A DNA stretch of 64,000 bases, taken from positions 372,001 to 436,000 of the forward strand of contig OZ004596.1 in assembly GCA_963924555.1 (NCBI GenBank), in the 5' to 3' direction. The translations under genes and the position numbers were made by a program. Shown piece by piece: positions 42,109-51,000 of the stretch. The notes beneath the pieces are model-generated. The model made no database searches, was not told where the DNA came from, and was given only the letters and a program-made list of their open reading frames with translations. This stretch comes from Crambe crambe. Taxonomy: Eukaryota; Porifera; Demospongiae; Poecilosclerida; Crambeidae. The first letter of the stretch is position 1, and the number at the start of each line of letters is the position of its first letter.

Positions 42109-42205
42109 CTTTAGCTTTATATATCTATCTCCGGCTCCTGCCTCACACGCACACGTGGACTATTCTAAAATATTCCAATTGTAGCCCATCATAGCAAAGG
42201 TCAGC
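42109..42205. promoter_or_regulatory. Shared promoter between RSL24D1 and PIGO
   Basis: Only 97 bp separate the divergent start codons, the tightest head-to-head pair here. If PIGO starts at its second in-frame ATG (42215) the spacing is 106 bp. Confidence 0.5.
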
Positions 42206-45200
42206 TTGTGCATCATGAAAAAGGGAGCAGGAGGAAGGATAATTATCATCTTCATCTTCTGTTGTCACCTTGTGGGTGTTCTATTATTCTGCAAGGGCTT
42301 CTTGCTAAAGAGAGTTGTGGTTCCTGAACACAGCAAGTGTAGCAGAGACCAGGGGCCAGGCCACACCCCTTCACCTCTACCACCAGCTCACACCACCCTC
42401 GCAGACCTCCCCTCCTGTAACTCCTATCAAAGACCCTTTAAACGAGTCCTCTGGCTCCTCATTGATGCACTGCGTTACGACTTCATGCTGTATGACGACA
42501 CTTTAGTATCACCTCCAATTTACAGAAACAAAATGCCCTATATCAGAGACCTTCTGCGCACCCAACCAGCAAATGCTCGTCTTTTTAAATTCATCGCCGA
42601 TCCTCCAACAACAACTATGCAGAGACTGAAAGCCTTGACAACAGGGAGTCTACCAACATTCATCGATATTGGCAGTAACTTTAATAGCTATGCCATTTCA
42701 GAAGACAGTCTCGTCTACCAGGCTAAGTTGAATAGGAGGAATGTTACATTCATCGGGGATGACACTTGGCTGGGTCTCTATCCAAACATGATGACAAAGA
42801 CGTACGACTATCCTTCGTTGAATGTCAAGGACTTGGATACAGTAGATAATGGTGTCATGGAGCATTTAGGGTCAGAGTTGTCAGGGAATGATGCTGAGAT
42901 TTTGATTGGTCACATGCTGGGGGTGGATCATGTGGGGCACACGTATGGACCCTCTCATTGGACTATGGGGCAGAAGTTGACACAAATGAACAGTTTTATT
43001 GAGTGAGTCGATAGACATCAGATTGTGTTCATGGTGCTGATGTATTGTCTTGTATAATAAGGGATATATTCACGCACCACCTGGATGAAGGCACAGTGGT
43101 ATTTGTCCTTGGGGATCATGGGATGAATCCAGCAGGGGACCATGGGGGAGAGACTGACCTGGAGACCAACGCTGCTCTTCTTGTCTACTCTCTTCGACCT
43201 TTATTTGACCCCTCAGAGGTGAGAAGCTGTTTTGGTCTATGATGGTTCCTATGGTGATAAGTTTTGCTGCACTGAATCTAGGAAAAGGGACCAAAAATTT
43301 TAAAAAAACTGAGTTGGAATTTTCATTTAGTCAAAAGTGAACAAGCTGAATGCTTAGATTCACATTTGTTTGAAATCTCAAAAAGCCAAATTTTTTATGA
43401 GCCCAAATGTGAATCTAGTGTGATTCACTTTTGATCTTTAAACCCAAATAGGTCACCCTAATGGGAATTTGGTGAAATGGTCCCTCTTCCTAGATCCTAT
43501 CATGTATGTATCATACTCTCTCTCAGTCCCCAATAGGACGAGAGATCTTCCAGATCGACCTCGTACCGACTGTAGCCATGGCATTGGGCCTACCCATTCC
43601 CTTTTCCAACTTGGGGATGATCATACCTGAGGTCTTTCTTCCCTTCAGCAAGACTGGAAACAGAGAAGCTGTTGGTGGGGACAGTGATGGCGATGGCTAC
43701 AGTGGCAGAGTCACTTCTGAATTCTTGATGGCTTTGAGAACAAATGCAGAACAAATTCATAACTATCTCGCCACCTACTCGCAATACTCTGGGGATTTCT
43801 CTACTGATACGCTGCACATGCTGGAAGATGGTTTTGGACTTGCCCTGGGGCTGCACCAAAGATTGCTTGAAACAGAAGGAGGTAGAGAGCCTTCTCAGAG
43901 AGAACTGACGTACATTGCTACCAAATACATCACCTACATGAAAGAGGTGAAAGGAATGTGTCAAAGGATCTGGGCCAAGTTTGATGATGTGCCAATGGTT
44001 CTGGGTTTCAGTCTTCTCTTCCCGGCAGTGGTGACTTCATTGCTCATGCTGGTGGATGTCAATAAGGCTACTCTCTATCTTCGTCATTCTGCAGTGACTG
44101 GACTCAAGGCTGGAATAATCCTCACTTCAATCTCATTAATATTCACAGGAATTGAAACATCTTTTTTTGGATTTTTGATACTGGTGACTAATTACCTTTT
44201 GTTTTCTTTGCTCTCGATAATTTTCGTGTTTATTTGGAATTTTAAAGACGTCCTCATCAAGTTATTAACACATATTCAACTTGGTATTTCATCTTTTATG
44301 CATCAGTTTGACTTCTTGAAACTGTTGGCTCTTGTGGTTATTCTGCTTTATGCCCTTTCTATGCTTTCCAACAGCTTCATCTTATACGAGGCTGATATGC
44401 TGGCTTTCTTCATCCAATCTCTTGTTCTTTTCTTTGCTGTAAGAAATGTTCAAAAGGAATTGCGTGGCAATAAAATCGCTGGAAGAGTTTCTTTACTGAA
44501 GAGTGTAATTCCTCACTTACTTTTAATGGTGTGGATCCGTGTTTCAAAGCTGTTTTATGCGTGCAGAGACCTTCAGTTACAAGATGGGTGCGAGTCCACC
44601 ACTTTCATTCTGCCTTTGGCATCAGCAGCTGAGTTTTTAGGCCCTCTAGCAAAGTGGAGATTGGTGATCTCAAGCCTGGCAGTTGTGTTAACCCCAATAG
44701 CATTGATTGTCTATCTTCAGAGGAGTGACAACTACAGATTCTTGAGCAGTTCTCTCGTGGCAGTGATCAAGTTTGGATTTCCAGTTTCCAGTGTGTGTGT
44801 GGTAATCTATTGGGTGATACAAACCTTCCCTCGTTCAACTCTTCTCTCTCTGGCTCACTGGCAGCATGTCCTGCCACCTCAGATTGTCTATGTCATTACA
44901 GCAACCATAATAGTCTTGTGTGTGGTTTACCCTTTTAAGAGACAACATTTTCCTTCCATTAAGTTCTTGTTGGAAGAAAGGGAAGCTAACAACAGTGCTA
45001 CCCAATTGGCAAAAGCTAGCCATGGTGACACCAATCCTACCTCAAGGTTCAGGAAGTTTGACCATTCTGAATCTCCCATTACCAATTCAAAGCAACAGAC
45101 AGTGACTACCCCATCAATGCTGCCGTCCATAGCAACACTGGTTGCCATGGTGTTCTCCATTCTGATTGTTTCTCTGTGGATCCCAATAGCAATGGTTCTG

Positions 45201-45955
45201 AATGATGGCCTTGCCCTGTCTGCTCTTCTCACAGCTCTGCAGGTGTTCCTTACATTGAAGTTTCTACGGAATTCTGAGAAAGGTACAGCCAAAGTTTTAT
45301 TTGTGTATGAACCATCACCCTCCCTCCCTCCCTCCCTCCCTCCAACTCCTCTAGGTGTGTCATGGGAAGCATGTGTCCTGTGGGGTCTACTGGGTTGCCA
45401 TTCCTTCTTCAGTTTTGGTCACCATGCCACTGTCACTAGTCTGAGATTTGAGGCCGGCTTTGTGGGCATTCAAGAAATTACAAGCTACAATCTTCCACTT
45501 GCCGCTTCACTGGTGGGCCTCAATATGTTAGCCTCTCAGGTTAGCACAGTGTTCTTTAAGTTAAACCCCTTCCCCTGAAAGTAAACACAATCATCCACTT
45601 CAGATTCTGTATGGACTTGGGTTTCCTCTAATGGTGATTCTCTGGACAAGAGCTAATGGCATGCCAAGTGACCAGCTCCTCAAACCTATGCTCTCTTACG
45701 TCACTCTCCATTCCTTCAGGGTATGCATACATTTACAATTTTCCTATTAGCACTTAAACACCAGCAACCATCTTGCAGTTATTAATCACAATGGTGGCTG
45801 CCTCAATGCACCGGAGACACTTGATGGTGTGGTGGGTCTTTACTCCAAGGTTTCTCTATGAGGCAGCTTTCCAAGCCGTCACTGACATCTCTATGATTTT
45901 AGGCTTTACTTTAGTCAAGAGATTAGAACACATTTTATCAGCAGCTTCCAATTAG
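42206..45955 (+). CDS. PIGO: GPI ethanolamine phosphate transferase 3
   Basis: Adds ethanolamine phosphate to the third mannose of the GPI precursor in the ER. Signal anchor KKGAGGRIIIIFIFCCHLVGVLLFCKGF; lumenal alkaline-phosphatase-fold motifs KRVLWLLIDALRYDF, DPPTTTMQRLKALTTGSLPTFIDIGSNF (catalytic Thr region), NVTFIGDDTWLGLYP, HMLGVDHVGHTYGP and GTVVFVLGDHGMNPAGDHGG. Next exon IGREIFQIDLVPTVAMALGLPIPFSNLG, followed by many hydrophobic segments to GFTLVKRLEHILSAASN. Exons: 42206-43003, ~43062-43218, ~43528-45282, ~45356-45538, ~45604-45720 and ~45780-45955. An intron carries a foldback element and another has a (CCCT)n tract at its acceptor. The stop is 12 bp from the convergent neugrin-like stop. 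Confidence 0.95.
43276..43495. mobile_element. 220-bp foldback (palindromic MITE-like) element in a PIGO intron
   Basis: Ends are ATCTAGGAAAAGGGACCA and the near-exact reverse complement TGGTCCCTCTTCCTAGAT. Internal arms also pair: TAGATTCACATTTG (43355) with CAAATGTGAATCTA (43404), and TCAAAAGTGAA with TTCACTTTTGA. The whole element folds into one long hairpin. Confidence 0.8.
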
Positions 45956-45967
45956 TGTAATCAATTT

Positions 45968-46446
45968 TCATTTCTTCTTGTCTTTTGTTAAATTGGCTGA
46001 ATTAGAATCATTGTTACTTGAAGGAACTGTTGTTGGTGATTTTGCTGCTCTTTTTTCCTCTATTTGTTGCTTGGCTCTAGCATCTTGTCTCTTCTTTATC
46101 TCTGGCGTCGGCTCAAACTTGCTCTTCAGAATTCTCATTATGGCTGGGACACTGATTCCAAAGCTTTGTGACAGCTTTTTAACAGTCCATTCCTCCGGTA
46201 GAGTTTGTCTCAGGGTTCGTAGGTGATCAATCTGGTGCCATGTCAGTCTCTTAGAAGGTGCCCATCTTTCATGACCCATCCTTTTCTGCTGACGTAACTC
46301 TTTCCAGTTCTTTCTCTTGGTTCCTACACTTGTCCTGTTCGGTGACCTTCATTATAATTATGGTGCATAATGGGGGGAGTAGACTCACTCTGCTTCAACA
46401 GGTAGTTCTGGAAACTCTGAACCTCTTCTGTATCCATTTGCTGCAT
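45968..46446 (-). CDS. NGRN: Neugrin-like (Rrg9-type) protein
   Basis: Neugrin helps mitochondrial 16S rRNA stability and mitoribosome function in mammals. Exon 1 (46446 to about 46389) MQQMDTEEVQSFQNYLLKQ splices in phase to RTKRKNWKELRQQKRMGHERWAPSKRLTWHQIDHLRTLRQTLPEEWTVKKLSQSFGISVPAIMRILKSKFEPTPEIKKRQDARAKQQ. This matches the neugrin core (human W.. RLA..FDVSTDVIRRVLKSKFLPTLEQK). The tail is Ser/Asn/Lys-rich. No clear mitochondrial presequence at this start; an extra upstream exon is possible. Assignment by the helix-turn-helix-like core only. Confidence 0.75.
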
Positions 46447-46576: not shown

Positions 46577-47318
46577 ATGCCAAAGAAATTTAAAGGGGAG
46601 AACAGTAAGGCAGTGGTAGCTAAAGAGAAGAAAGCTGCTGCCAGAGAACTAGCGGAACAGGAGAAGAAAAAGAAGGAGGAGGACGAGTACTGGAGAGATG
46701 ACGATAAGTATGTAATGAGGAAGCAGGAAAGAAAGGTACTTACTAAGTTACCTATCTATCTAGCTAGTACCGTAGACCAACAACAAACATTTGAGGTTAT
46801 ATCACCTATTTGTACAACGTATTTTATAGGCAGATAAGGAGAAGAAGAAGCAAGAGCAGTTTGAACGAAAGCAGGCAGCAAAGCTTCTGCTGGAAGAGGA
46901 AGAAAAGAAACTCAAAGGGAAAACAAGTGGTGCAGTACCTAAAGTTACACGTGCTCAGATCAATGAAGCAGACGAGAAGCGAAGGAGAGAGGAGAGAGAG
47001 GGTGCAAGTGCCCTTCCCCGAGGGGTTGTTGTGGGACCTGATCTCACACAGAATCCCAACCATTTACTCCAAGAACGAATGGAGAAGGGAGAACTTGATG
47101 CTAGAACTGTAGAAGAAGCTATTGATGTCTTGAGTGTGTCACAGGATCAGTTTGATAAGCATCCTGAGAGAAGATTAAAGGCTGCATTTGCTGCCTTCGA
47201 AGAGAGAGAGATGCCACGACTGAAGGCAGAGAATCCTAATTTGAGACAGTCACAAGTGAAACAGTTGCTAAGAAAGCAATGGATGAAATCACCAGATAAC
47301 CCTATGAATCAGTTGTAA
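46577..47318 (+). CDS. CCDC124: Coiled-coil domain-containing protein 124
   Basis: CCDC124/Lso2 binds ribosomes and supports recovery from hibernation. Exon 1 MPKKFKGENSKAVVAKEKKAAARELAEQEKKKKEEDEYWRDDDKYVMRKQERK is the conserved Lso2-type N-terminus. After a ~95-bp intron: ADKEKKKQEQFERKQAAKLLLEEEEKKLKGK, VTRAQINEADEKRRREER and NPNHLLQERMEKGELDARTVEEAIDVLSV. The C-terminal HMG-like part reads DKHPERRLKAAFAAFEEREMPRLKAENPNLRQSQVKQLLRKQWMKSPDNPMNQL. Complete and of normal length. Confidence 0.96.
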
Positions 47319-47450: not shown

Positions 47451-47797
47451 ATGGTTTGAGTGAGTTGTATCGCCATTCCCTTGGTTCTCTTTCTCTGGGC
47501 CAGGTACCTTAAGCCACTATTAGCTTGGTGGCGTGGGGAAGGAGTTGTGGAGAAGGCTGTAGAGAAGGGCGATGGTGGTGTAGTCTGGCTTACGCGTGGC
47601 CAGACTAGTGGTGGTGGTGAAACGAAACAAGATAGTGGTAGTACGGAGGACAGTGGTAACAGTATGGTTCCAAGTGGTCCTGACAACAAGGATACTTCGA
47701 TCAGGTGTGTTAGCTGAAGCATTTAGAACTAGCACATGTAATCATTCAGCTCTCTCATTATTTTTTTGTAATCTATCACAGACGACGTATCCAGTGA
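47451..47797 (+). CDS. C18orf32: C18orf32/UPF0729 homologue with in-frame TGA at codon 3: candidate selenoprotein (UxxC)
   Basis: The reading frame is ATG GTT TGA GTG AGT TGT ATC GCC ATT CCC, i.e. M-V-[TGA]-V-S-C-I-A-I-P-L-V-L-F-L-W, then RYLKPLLAWW. Vertebrate C18orf32 begins MVCIPCIVIPVLLW, so TGA falls on the first Cys of the conserved CxxC. The frame then stays open for 81 codons to a donor (AG|GTGTGT at 47704). The short last exon (from 47782) adds RRIQ and a stop at 47795-47797: 89 residues including the presumed Sec. A short membrane-inserted N-terminus and a polar Gly/Ser/Asp tail fit the family, which is reported at ER/lipid droplets; function unknown. Without recoding the product would be two residues long; a start after the TGA would have to be GTG. 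The SECIS-like fold at 47847-47933 supports recoding. Confidence 0.8.
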
Positions 47798-47846: not shown

Positions 47847-47933
47847 GGCTGTATTTGTACCCATGACAGCAGCTATCAAAACTTTGTACTAGCAGAGAGA
47901 TAGTTGACTGGAAAGAATATGTGAAATGTAGCC
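47847..47933 (+). promoter_or_regulatory. Predicted SECIS element (form 2) in the 3' UTR of the C18orf32 homologue
   Basis: Begins 49 nt after the stop codon. Helix I: GGCTGTATTT (47847-47856) pairs with AAATGTAGCC (47924-47933), ten pairs including G-U. The internal loop leads to the quartet: TGA (47864-47866) opposite GAA (47911-47913), giving U-A plus tandem G.A/A.G. Helix II: CAGCAGCTATC (47867-47877) pairs with GATAGTTGACTG (47899-47910), eleven pairs with one bulged A. AAAA (47878-47881) follows, exactly 11 nt after ATGA. A mini-stem CTTTG/CAGAG (47882-47886 with 47893-47897) closes a 6-nt loop, the hallmark of form-2 SECIS. All core features and spacings match the eukaryotic consensus; folded by hand only. 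Confidence 0.85.
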
Positions 47934-48069
47934 TCAGTGTAATCATGTTTCCATCTGAATCATTTTTGTGTTCTGTGTTCGCGTTGACGTTCTTGTGGTC
48001 AAAAAAAAAAAGAAGTTTAATTTATTTTTCATTTGATGATCGATCAGTACCCAACGTCAAGTTTGCAGC

Positions 48070-51000
48070 ATGGCGTTTTTGCAAGTGTGCCTGCTGTGTG
48101 TGTGCCTGTTAAAGCTTGGCACAGGCTTCCAGACAGAAAGATTCCTCAGTGATGTCCAATGGACTGTGAAAGATGGCCTGGGTCATTTGAGTGAAGCAAT
48201 AACTGCTGCTGTCCCAGGACAAGTGCACCTGGATCTCATGTGAGTTGAATTTTATCTGACAAGCATTGAAATGAATCTCCTCTGACTGTAAATAGACGTG
48301 CAGGAATCATCGAGGAACCTTATGGTGAGCATCCACATTGTTAAAAGTTGTGCGAGCAAGTAAAAGGGCTTTCTTCTTCACTTTCTAGTTGGCTGGAATG
48401 ATTGGTTGTACCAGTGGGTTGGTTATAGCAATTGGACATACACTGGAAAAATAGACGTGACTGCTGAGGACTTGCAAAAGAACAGGAAACTGTATCTCAA
48501 GTTTTATGGCCTGGACACAATTGCCACTATATGGTCCTTATGAAGTACAGTGGAACCTCTCTGGATAATGGACACACACTTGGGACTCAGCCTTTTGTCC
48601 TTTGTAGAGAGGTTGTCCTCCTTTGTACTCTTAGATTGTCCTGTATTGAGCGTCCTTCATCGAAGGAGGTTCCACTGTATTAGTAGTGGACAAGGGGAAT
48701 AATTATGACCCCTGTTAATTATCATTTTGCAGGTTCCAAGGCAAAATACTGGGTCATGCTGACAATTACCACAGACGCTATATGTTTGATATCACTGTGA
48801 GTAGCTGCATGGGGAACTAACCTGGTGGAATATGATTCTCTCGTCCTTTTCTTTTCCCATAGGATGTTGCTGTAGTTGGAGTCAATTCAATACAAGTTGA
48901 TTTCAGAGTATGTTTGTCCTTTTCTAAAAGTGGGAAAGAATCACATGAACTGGCTCTAGTCTGCAGCTAACTACAGCTATGAACAGGCAGCTGCTTACCC
49001 CTATGACCTGTACACTGACATTCAAGGTGTCTTCTTCAACAAGTCTCAGAGGGGGTTTGTGCGCAAGACGCAGTGTGACTTTGGGTGGGACTGGGGCCCA
49101 GGATTGGTCCCCTGTGGCATCTGGGGAAATGTGAGGCAAGTCTCTCTTTATTGAAGGCAGTGCTGCTACACTTATCCATAGAACATAAATTAATTTGAGA
49201 ACCAGATCCTTTCTTTACTTGTGCAGGTGTAGCGGGTGTAGATAAGAGTCAGATATGACGAGCATTGTTACTTTACGGGTTTGGTTTTTGATGACATTCT
49301 TGTTGGTTATATATATAGCTTGGTCACATTTGACCAGGTATACATAACTGACGTGGTTCCCAAGGCCTACTTTGACGAAATGGAGAAGATGTACATGGTA
49401 TCGGTGACTGTGTGTGTCATGGTGACAAGTGAGCCTTCCTCAGCAATGTTAGTGAGTGTTTACTCTCAGCTAAAGGGACTGGATAACATGACTGTTGAAG
49501 GGGTGAGTCGTAGTATTAGACAGAGATGTGTGAAATCACAGGGCCTTGGCTTGCAGGAATTTTATGTTTCTGCTGAAGGGGAGACTTGTGCGAGTGTTGT
49601 CAGTAAGCCGATATCGCCTGAGGTGATTGAGCCTGATCATCTGTGGTGGCCCTTGGGAGTACGCTGGCCCCCTACCAAGGGGAGAGCCAATCTCACCGAG
49701 ATCACGTCTAAAGTTGACATCATGATGGGAACTGTTAGTGTTAATGACGGGATCTTTTCTATGTTGGTGATTTTTTAAACTTCCTACGTAGGAGAACAAA
49801 CTAGCATCCATTACAGTCACAAAAAACATAGGATTTCGCAATGTCCAGCTGGTGCAGGTAAGAAATCCTTATTCTTGCATCATGTTACATCCCCAACTTA
49901 ATTGATATTTTAGGATTCAATTGGAATAAACAAGACTGGCCTCACCTTTTACTTCCAGTTGACTACAGCCAGCTCAAAAATATCACGTACGTATGTCACT
50001 TAAAATGTAGTGCAAGAATTTGAATCTCACGAAATTAAGATGTCCCTACTCTGACATCATCTTTTCTTTCTCTTCAGCTCAGTTCTATCCTTTCTACGCT
50101 AAAGGGTCCAATTTCATTCCTATGAATGCATTCATCAATAGAGTAACCATTGACTACGCACGACAGCTGCTTACTTCATTTGTGGATGGAAATCAAAACA
50201 TGTTGAGAGTATGGTAAGGGAGTTCAGGTGCAACATAGTTTTTTGAAGGCCTTTTTTCTCTCTTTTCTTTCCTTCTTCAAAGGGGAGGAGGATTGTACCA
50301 GCCTGACTGGTTTTATGACTTGTGTGATGAGATGGGGATCATGGTTTGGCAGGAATTTATGTTTGCAGATGCTCTTTATCCACGAAATGGGGTTAGAAAA
50401 AAAGACTGATGAATGTTTTCTTATTGAAGTAAATAAACCTTTAAAAAGGAATTTCTGGTAAACGTTGAAGCTGAGATTCGTGATGTGGTGCGTCGTCTTG
50501 GTCACCATCCCAGTATTGTGCTGTGGAGTGGGAACAATGAGAATCAGGTTTGACAGGAAAAGATCGTCAATGAATCCATGCAATGATTCGTTTCATGTTG
50601 ATGCTCCTTGTAGGGAATATTGGGTCTTGATACAGTACGTATAGTGGACTACACTGTCCTTTATGACGAGATCATAAGAACAACACTTTGGGAAGAGGTA
50701 TATAGCTATATTATCATGTTCAAGTTGTCATGGCGCTATTACCACGAGTTGGTGTTCTCATAGGATACCACACGGATTTATTGGCCCTCCAGTCCCTCTA
50801 ATGGAGTCTTGGTCGATGATAAAGAGCGTGAACTCTTTATCCAGCGATGGGGAGATGTATCTAACACTAGTTTTGGAGATGTGCACAGGTACAATGTCGT
50901 ACTAATAGTATTGGTTAGTGACTCGTCTTTATTACTTTTTAGGTACGACTACTTTGACTACTGTATGGATGTGTCCAAGTTCCCCAAGGCGAGATTTGTC

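Follow-up and report, generated by a model that had tools for sequence, protein, structure and literature searches.

The locus at 47451 raises the question of what a TGA does at the third codon of a small gene, exactly where its protein family carries a cysteine. It could be a stop, an error or a codon for selenocysteine (Sec). The gene is located in a 64,000-nucleotide stretch of Crambe crambe DNA, called the window below, and belongs by its N-terminus with C18orf32/UPF0729 (DUF4512).

Reading frame and resemblance to C18orf32/UPF0729

The frame begins at ATG 47451 with ATG GTT TGA GTG AGT TGT ATC GCC ATT CCC, as the first-pass annotation had described. The TGA (47457-47459) is followed by VSCIAIPLVLFLWARYLKPLLAWW..., and the frame stays open as far as a second TGA (47715-47717). 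The start codon has the context AGAATGG, with A at -3 and G at +4, and an in-frame stop is found 5' of it, with five codons between. A probable 77-nt intron with GT/AG ends (CAG/GTGTGT ... CACAG/ACG) would modify the end of the protein. Once it is taken out, the frame ends in ...IRRRIQ, at a stop whose last base (47797) is also the end coordinate of the first-pass annotation. After the in-frame TGA, 85 codons are open in the unspliced form and 86 in the spliced one. The 81 codons counted earlier agree with exon 1 alone, counted in whole codons from behind the TGA, but not with this full count. The GTGAGT at 47460-47465 could also permit an alternative splice that removes the coding part. All features are listed in Table 1.

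Table 1. Features of the locus and of the neighbouring genes (positions in the window).
Feature	Position	Strand	Basis and remarks
Neugrin-like gene	45968-46348	-	PF06413, 63.7 bits
CCDC124	46830-47318	+	PF06244, 124.7 bits; directly upstream of the C18orf32 homologue
Coding exon 1 of the C18orf32 homologue, TGA as codon 3	47451-47704	+	Exon end inferred from the CAG/GTGTGT donor
In-frame TGA at the Cys3 of the family, proposed Sec codon; UxxC with Cys6 (47466-47468)	47457-47459	+	Homologue alignment
Probable 77-nt intron	47705-47781	+	Inferred from sequence; unspliced frame stops at 47715-47717
Probable last coding stretch, with its stop TGA at 47795-47797	47782-47797	+	Inferred
SECIS-like element	47847-47934	+	Sequence, folding, Rfam alignment, structural scan
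Glycosyl hydrolase 2 gene start	48070-48543	+	PF22666, 42.7 bits; beta-mannosidase-like in our reading

Further upstream, the exons at 42185-45578 (+) look to us, by eye, like a GPI ethanolamine-phosphate transferase (PIGO). This identity was not confirmed, with a sub-threshold PF01663 match (14.1 bits) and no match in the PDB. If the PIGO reading is right, a gene of GPI synthesis is situated near C18orf32, which is probably a coincidence. A short MITE-like element (48546-48679), with inverted ends TACAGTGGAACCTC and GAGGTTCCACTGTA, is present in a presumed intron of the next gene.

With the TGA read as Cys, the translation matches Pfam DUF4512 (PF14975) over positions 1-27 of 103, with 24 bits and an E-value of 6.2e-5, narrowly short of the gathering score of 27. 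Taken by itself, the part behind the TGA reaches 16.5 bits. The set of homologues contained 240 proteins (of 433 and 349 hits, the best 120 in each case); the names shown are those of vertebrates and insects, and no sponge or cnidarian is found among the named rows. A start pattern was fitted, without requiring Cys, to 241 rows, these 240 and the window's own fragment, and 228 of them fit. The first-pass annotation had proposed to tabulate codon 3 across homologues. Among these best-listed ones, Cys3 and Cys6 are present in all alignable proteins (228/228), which upholds its placing of the TGA at the conserved first Cys. The remaining 13 of the 241 rows consist of nine with a visible Cys pair, three without one in the printed part and the window's own fragment.

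In a profile of the 228 homologues, the locus obtains an E-value of 2.3e-7 with X at codon 3 and of 2.3e-9 with Cys. It is the only significant match to this profile among the 1563 six-frame segments of the window, the next best having an E-value of 0.24. The score rises from 23.4 bits for the part after the TGA only, to 28.2 for MV plus X and 34.6 for MV plus Cys. These values bear out the similarity claimed earlier on both sides of the TGA, and it is the first ~25 residues that match the family. The locus and the family have in common the N-terminal MVx[IVL][PS]C..IP..L hydrophobic segment, Pro10, Pro22 and a similar size. The rarer VSC spelling is common to the locus and to relatives such as P0223 (MVCVSCIVIPL...). 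In contrast, the family has Cys3 where a TGA is found here, the similarity stops near residue 25 and the C-terminal half is not recognisable.

The TGA could be bypassed, if an upstream exon supplied MVC by splicing or if A-to-I editing converted the codon to Trp. The donor-like GTGAGT stands directly after the TGA, which makes splicing there conceivable. However, the ATGGTTTG_ in place already codes for the MV of the family and for a Cys codon off by one base. By eye, the acceptor-like AG lacks a pyrimidine tract, and no good acceptor that bypasses the TGA is found. A Trp at position 3 would lower the profile score to 27.4 bits, compared to 34.6 for Cys, and Trp occurs there in 0/228 relatives. 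Bypass is, in our estimation, the least probable of the alternatives weighed here.

The SECIS-like element and Sec decoding in the genome

The Sec reading predicts a SECIS in the 3' UTR, and a SECIS-like element is present there. The 3' UTR is limited to 272 nt by the start of the glycosyl hydrolase 2 gene (ATG 48070, taken as the start of the next gene), counted from the stop at 47797, and the site is located inside this interval. Its core lies 66 nt after the spliced stop and ~329 nt after the in-frame TGA in the spliced message. The element folds to -25.8 kcal/mol, with a 10-bp outer helix I (47847-47856 with 47924-47933) and an ATGA (47863-47866) facing a GGA (47910-47912). Helix II, 11-bp-long with one bulged base, is followed by the apical AAAA (47878-47881) and a mini-stem, which is the type II arrangement. 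Judged by sequence and folding, the quartet core, the apical AA and the two helices of a SECIS are all present. The lack of a SECIS in related sponges had been named earlier as part of an observation that would speak against Sec; the genome studied here does have a SECIS-like element in the right place and on the right strand.

When a slightly longer stretch is compared with its dinucleotide shuffles, the z-score is -2.45, and 1/200 of the shuffles fold equally well. The structural scan for SECIS, which was written after the site had been spotted by eye, lists 27 SECIS-like sites in the window, the two strands taken together, and this one comes first with a score of -24.7. This score was reached by none of 3000 shuffles of the 343-nt UTR stretch. 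In 20 shuffled windows, both strands included, 11 sites reached it, which converts to ~0.0015 for 343 nt on a single strand.

This figure also bears on the possibility of an assembly error, in which the true codon at 47457-47459 would be TGT or TGC. TGA is one base away from the Cys codons, codon 3 is shown by one assembly only, and P0001 covers just the later part. Yet the SECIS-like element would then be a coincidence of ~0.0015 or less, and we hold such an error to be highly improbable.

Rfam SECIS_1 aligns to the element in register, with 17.2 bits, below the gathering score of 35. The E-value of 2.3 is counted over 4227 families and corresponds, by our own division, to ~5e-4 for SECIS_1 alone. 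Four other families also matched in this 610-base search, of which one had a lower E-value (0.6) and one scored higher (18.1 bits), and we think that they are chance matches. Over the whole window, no Rfam family reached its gathering score. The genome-wide SECIS_1 search gave no match and is uninformative, because known SECIS sites were missed too.

The selenoprotein genes of the same genome served as controls. Both Rfam and the structural scan found the SECIS sites of Sep15 and of two TrxR genes. SECIS_1 gives 36.9 bits for Sep15 and 33.6 and 24.4 bits for the two TrxR sites, with the window site (17.2) below all three. As two of these three control sites miss the gathering score of 35, this score does not define a SECIS here. 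In the structural scan, the window site (-24.7) is better than TrxR C14 (-22.1), Sep15 (-20.0) and TrxR C5 (-17.7). A candidate for SelW looks right by eye, with a scan score of -12.6; this is at chance level (62/200 shuffles), and it was not counted. For GPx and the selD-like gene, the structural scan gave no convincing site.

By its gene content, this genome decodes Sec. A tRNA-Sec with anticodon TCA is present (71.6 bits, cut-off 47), and SepSecS and eEFSec domain 4 match above their cut-offs. The selD-like search returned three weak matches (27.3-33.2 bits, whole-protein cut-off 125), and it also responds in 14/14 control genomes. In-frame TGA codons are found in GPx (ASQ*G), SelW (NA*GY) and two TrxR ends (GC*G*). 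Family searches, exon by exon, identified one Sec GPx, two TrxR, one SelW and one Sep15, the TGA of the latter not being seen itself. These counts match those in the published table of the sponge Amphimedon queenslandica (PMC3473315). SelM and SelT, which are also in that table, were not found here by the same searches (PMC3473315).

Near the SelW and GPx genes, two stretches (L021:3531-3779 and L020:3090-3204) gave sub-gathering Rfam matches to microRNA-precursor families (MIR869, 89.4 of 330 bits; mir-H1, 33 of 97 bits). They are probably foldback repeats.

Search for further copies and relatives

When the 143-Mb assembly was searched in six frames for DUF4512, it gave three matches at E-values up to 10, all below the cut-off: C14 (18.6 bits), the window locus with its TGA (17.7 bits) and C21 (16.1 bits). 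The match on C14 is confined to profile positions 6-32, lacks an MV..C start and overlies DNA whose other frame resembles, in our reading, a leucine-rich repeat. In the profile of the 228 homologues, C14 and C21 reach 16.5 and 12.3 bits, compared to 29.1 for the window locus, and both were rejected as chance. No convincing Cys copy or second DUF4512 locus was found in this six-frame search. A homologue search with the window protein returned only the window's own fragment, and scans of the genome and viral contigs gave no relative.

A pseudogene or null allele, in which a mutation turned the Cys codon into TGA and the remaining frame is decaying, would be the strongest competitor of the Sec reading. 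In its favour, conservation is judgeable only over the first 25 residues. It is nevertheless very improbable. Within the conserved part, the sole lesion hits one of just two positions, both Cys, at which a TGA is meaningful, and 85 codons remain open behind it. Moreover, the search gave no convincing intact second copy, and a SECIS-like element follows downstream.

Proposed product and meaning for the family

We consider the locus to be a functional selenoprotein gene, a Sec form of C18orf32/UPF0729, with a probability of roughly 0.87 on the sequence evidence. The claim of the first-pass annotation that the TGA is read as Sec is thus supported, by the SECIS-like element, the Sec machinery of the genome and the invariant Cys3 of the 228 alignable relatives. 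Apparently, the host makes a C18orf32 homologue with Sec at the near-N-terminal Cys of the family. Ribosomes would start at ATG 47451 and add Val, after which the UGA would be decoded as Sec by tRNA-Sec and eEFSec, recruited via the SECIS. An 89-residue membrane protein, of the kind found in the ER or on lipid droplets, would result. It would carry a selenol on residue 3 and have Cys6 as the resolving residue, where the N-terminal helix begins.

The AlphaFold model of the window protein contains one helix (residues 4-27), which is its only usable part: the block pLDDT is 89, 90 and 74 over residues 1-30, with a mean of 62 and a pTM of 0.29. This predicted helix would put residue 3 and Cys6 at its start. 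With a family member as query, no solved structure was matched. The start of a helix is a usual site of redox CxxC motifs, and an interchange of Sec and Cys within a family usually marks a redox-active residue. Redox motifs of the CxxU or UxxC type occur in eukaryotic selenoproteins, SelW and others. Like these, the locus combines its Sec codon with a Cys at the distance of a redox motif, and its 3' UTR contains a SECIS-like fold of type II. Unlike them, it represents a family for which our searches found no Sec form, and its Sec would be at residue 3, apparently an unusually early place in a selenoprotein. At the membrane surface, the protein would most likely act as a thiol/selenol redox centre of the UxxC type.

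The first-pass annotation knew of no Sec form in this family, and no such form of C18orf32, UPF0729 or DUF4512 is reported in the literature searched, with subscription papers and preprints mostly outside that search. The 2012 survey of A. queenslandica gives 22 selenoproteins, and the C18orf32 family is not among them (PMC3473315). The AphC-like selenoproteins of sponges, described in the same source, also form an extra sponge selenoprotein family, but they have a thioredoxin-like domain and constitute a different family (PMC3473315). Among the three new families reported in an algal survey, none is C18orf32 (PMC7539508).

In vertebrates, C18orf32 is described as a lipid-droplet protein that is regulated through ERAD-linked ligases (PMC9213792). 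A further review counts it among the genes that regulate the biosynthesis of GPI-anchored proteins and carry mutations in neurodevelopmental anomalies (PMC10940682). An assigned chemistry for C18orf32 was not found in the literature searched. The sponge sequence hints that human C18orf32 does sulfur-based redox chemistry as well. Tentatively, at slightly less than an even chance, C18orf32 might belong, so far unrecognised, to the selenol/thiol redox proteins of the ER and lipid-droplet membrane, with Cys3 and Cys6 as its active site across animals. Sec3 would be the catalytically stronger form, shared or lost in other lineages, perhaps early-branching animals, and the human disorder would reflect lost redox activity. 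By singling out one residue, the Sec form leads to the prediction that C18orf32 has a redox function. If true, Sec C18orf32 would be an added family in the animal selenoproteome.
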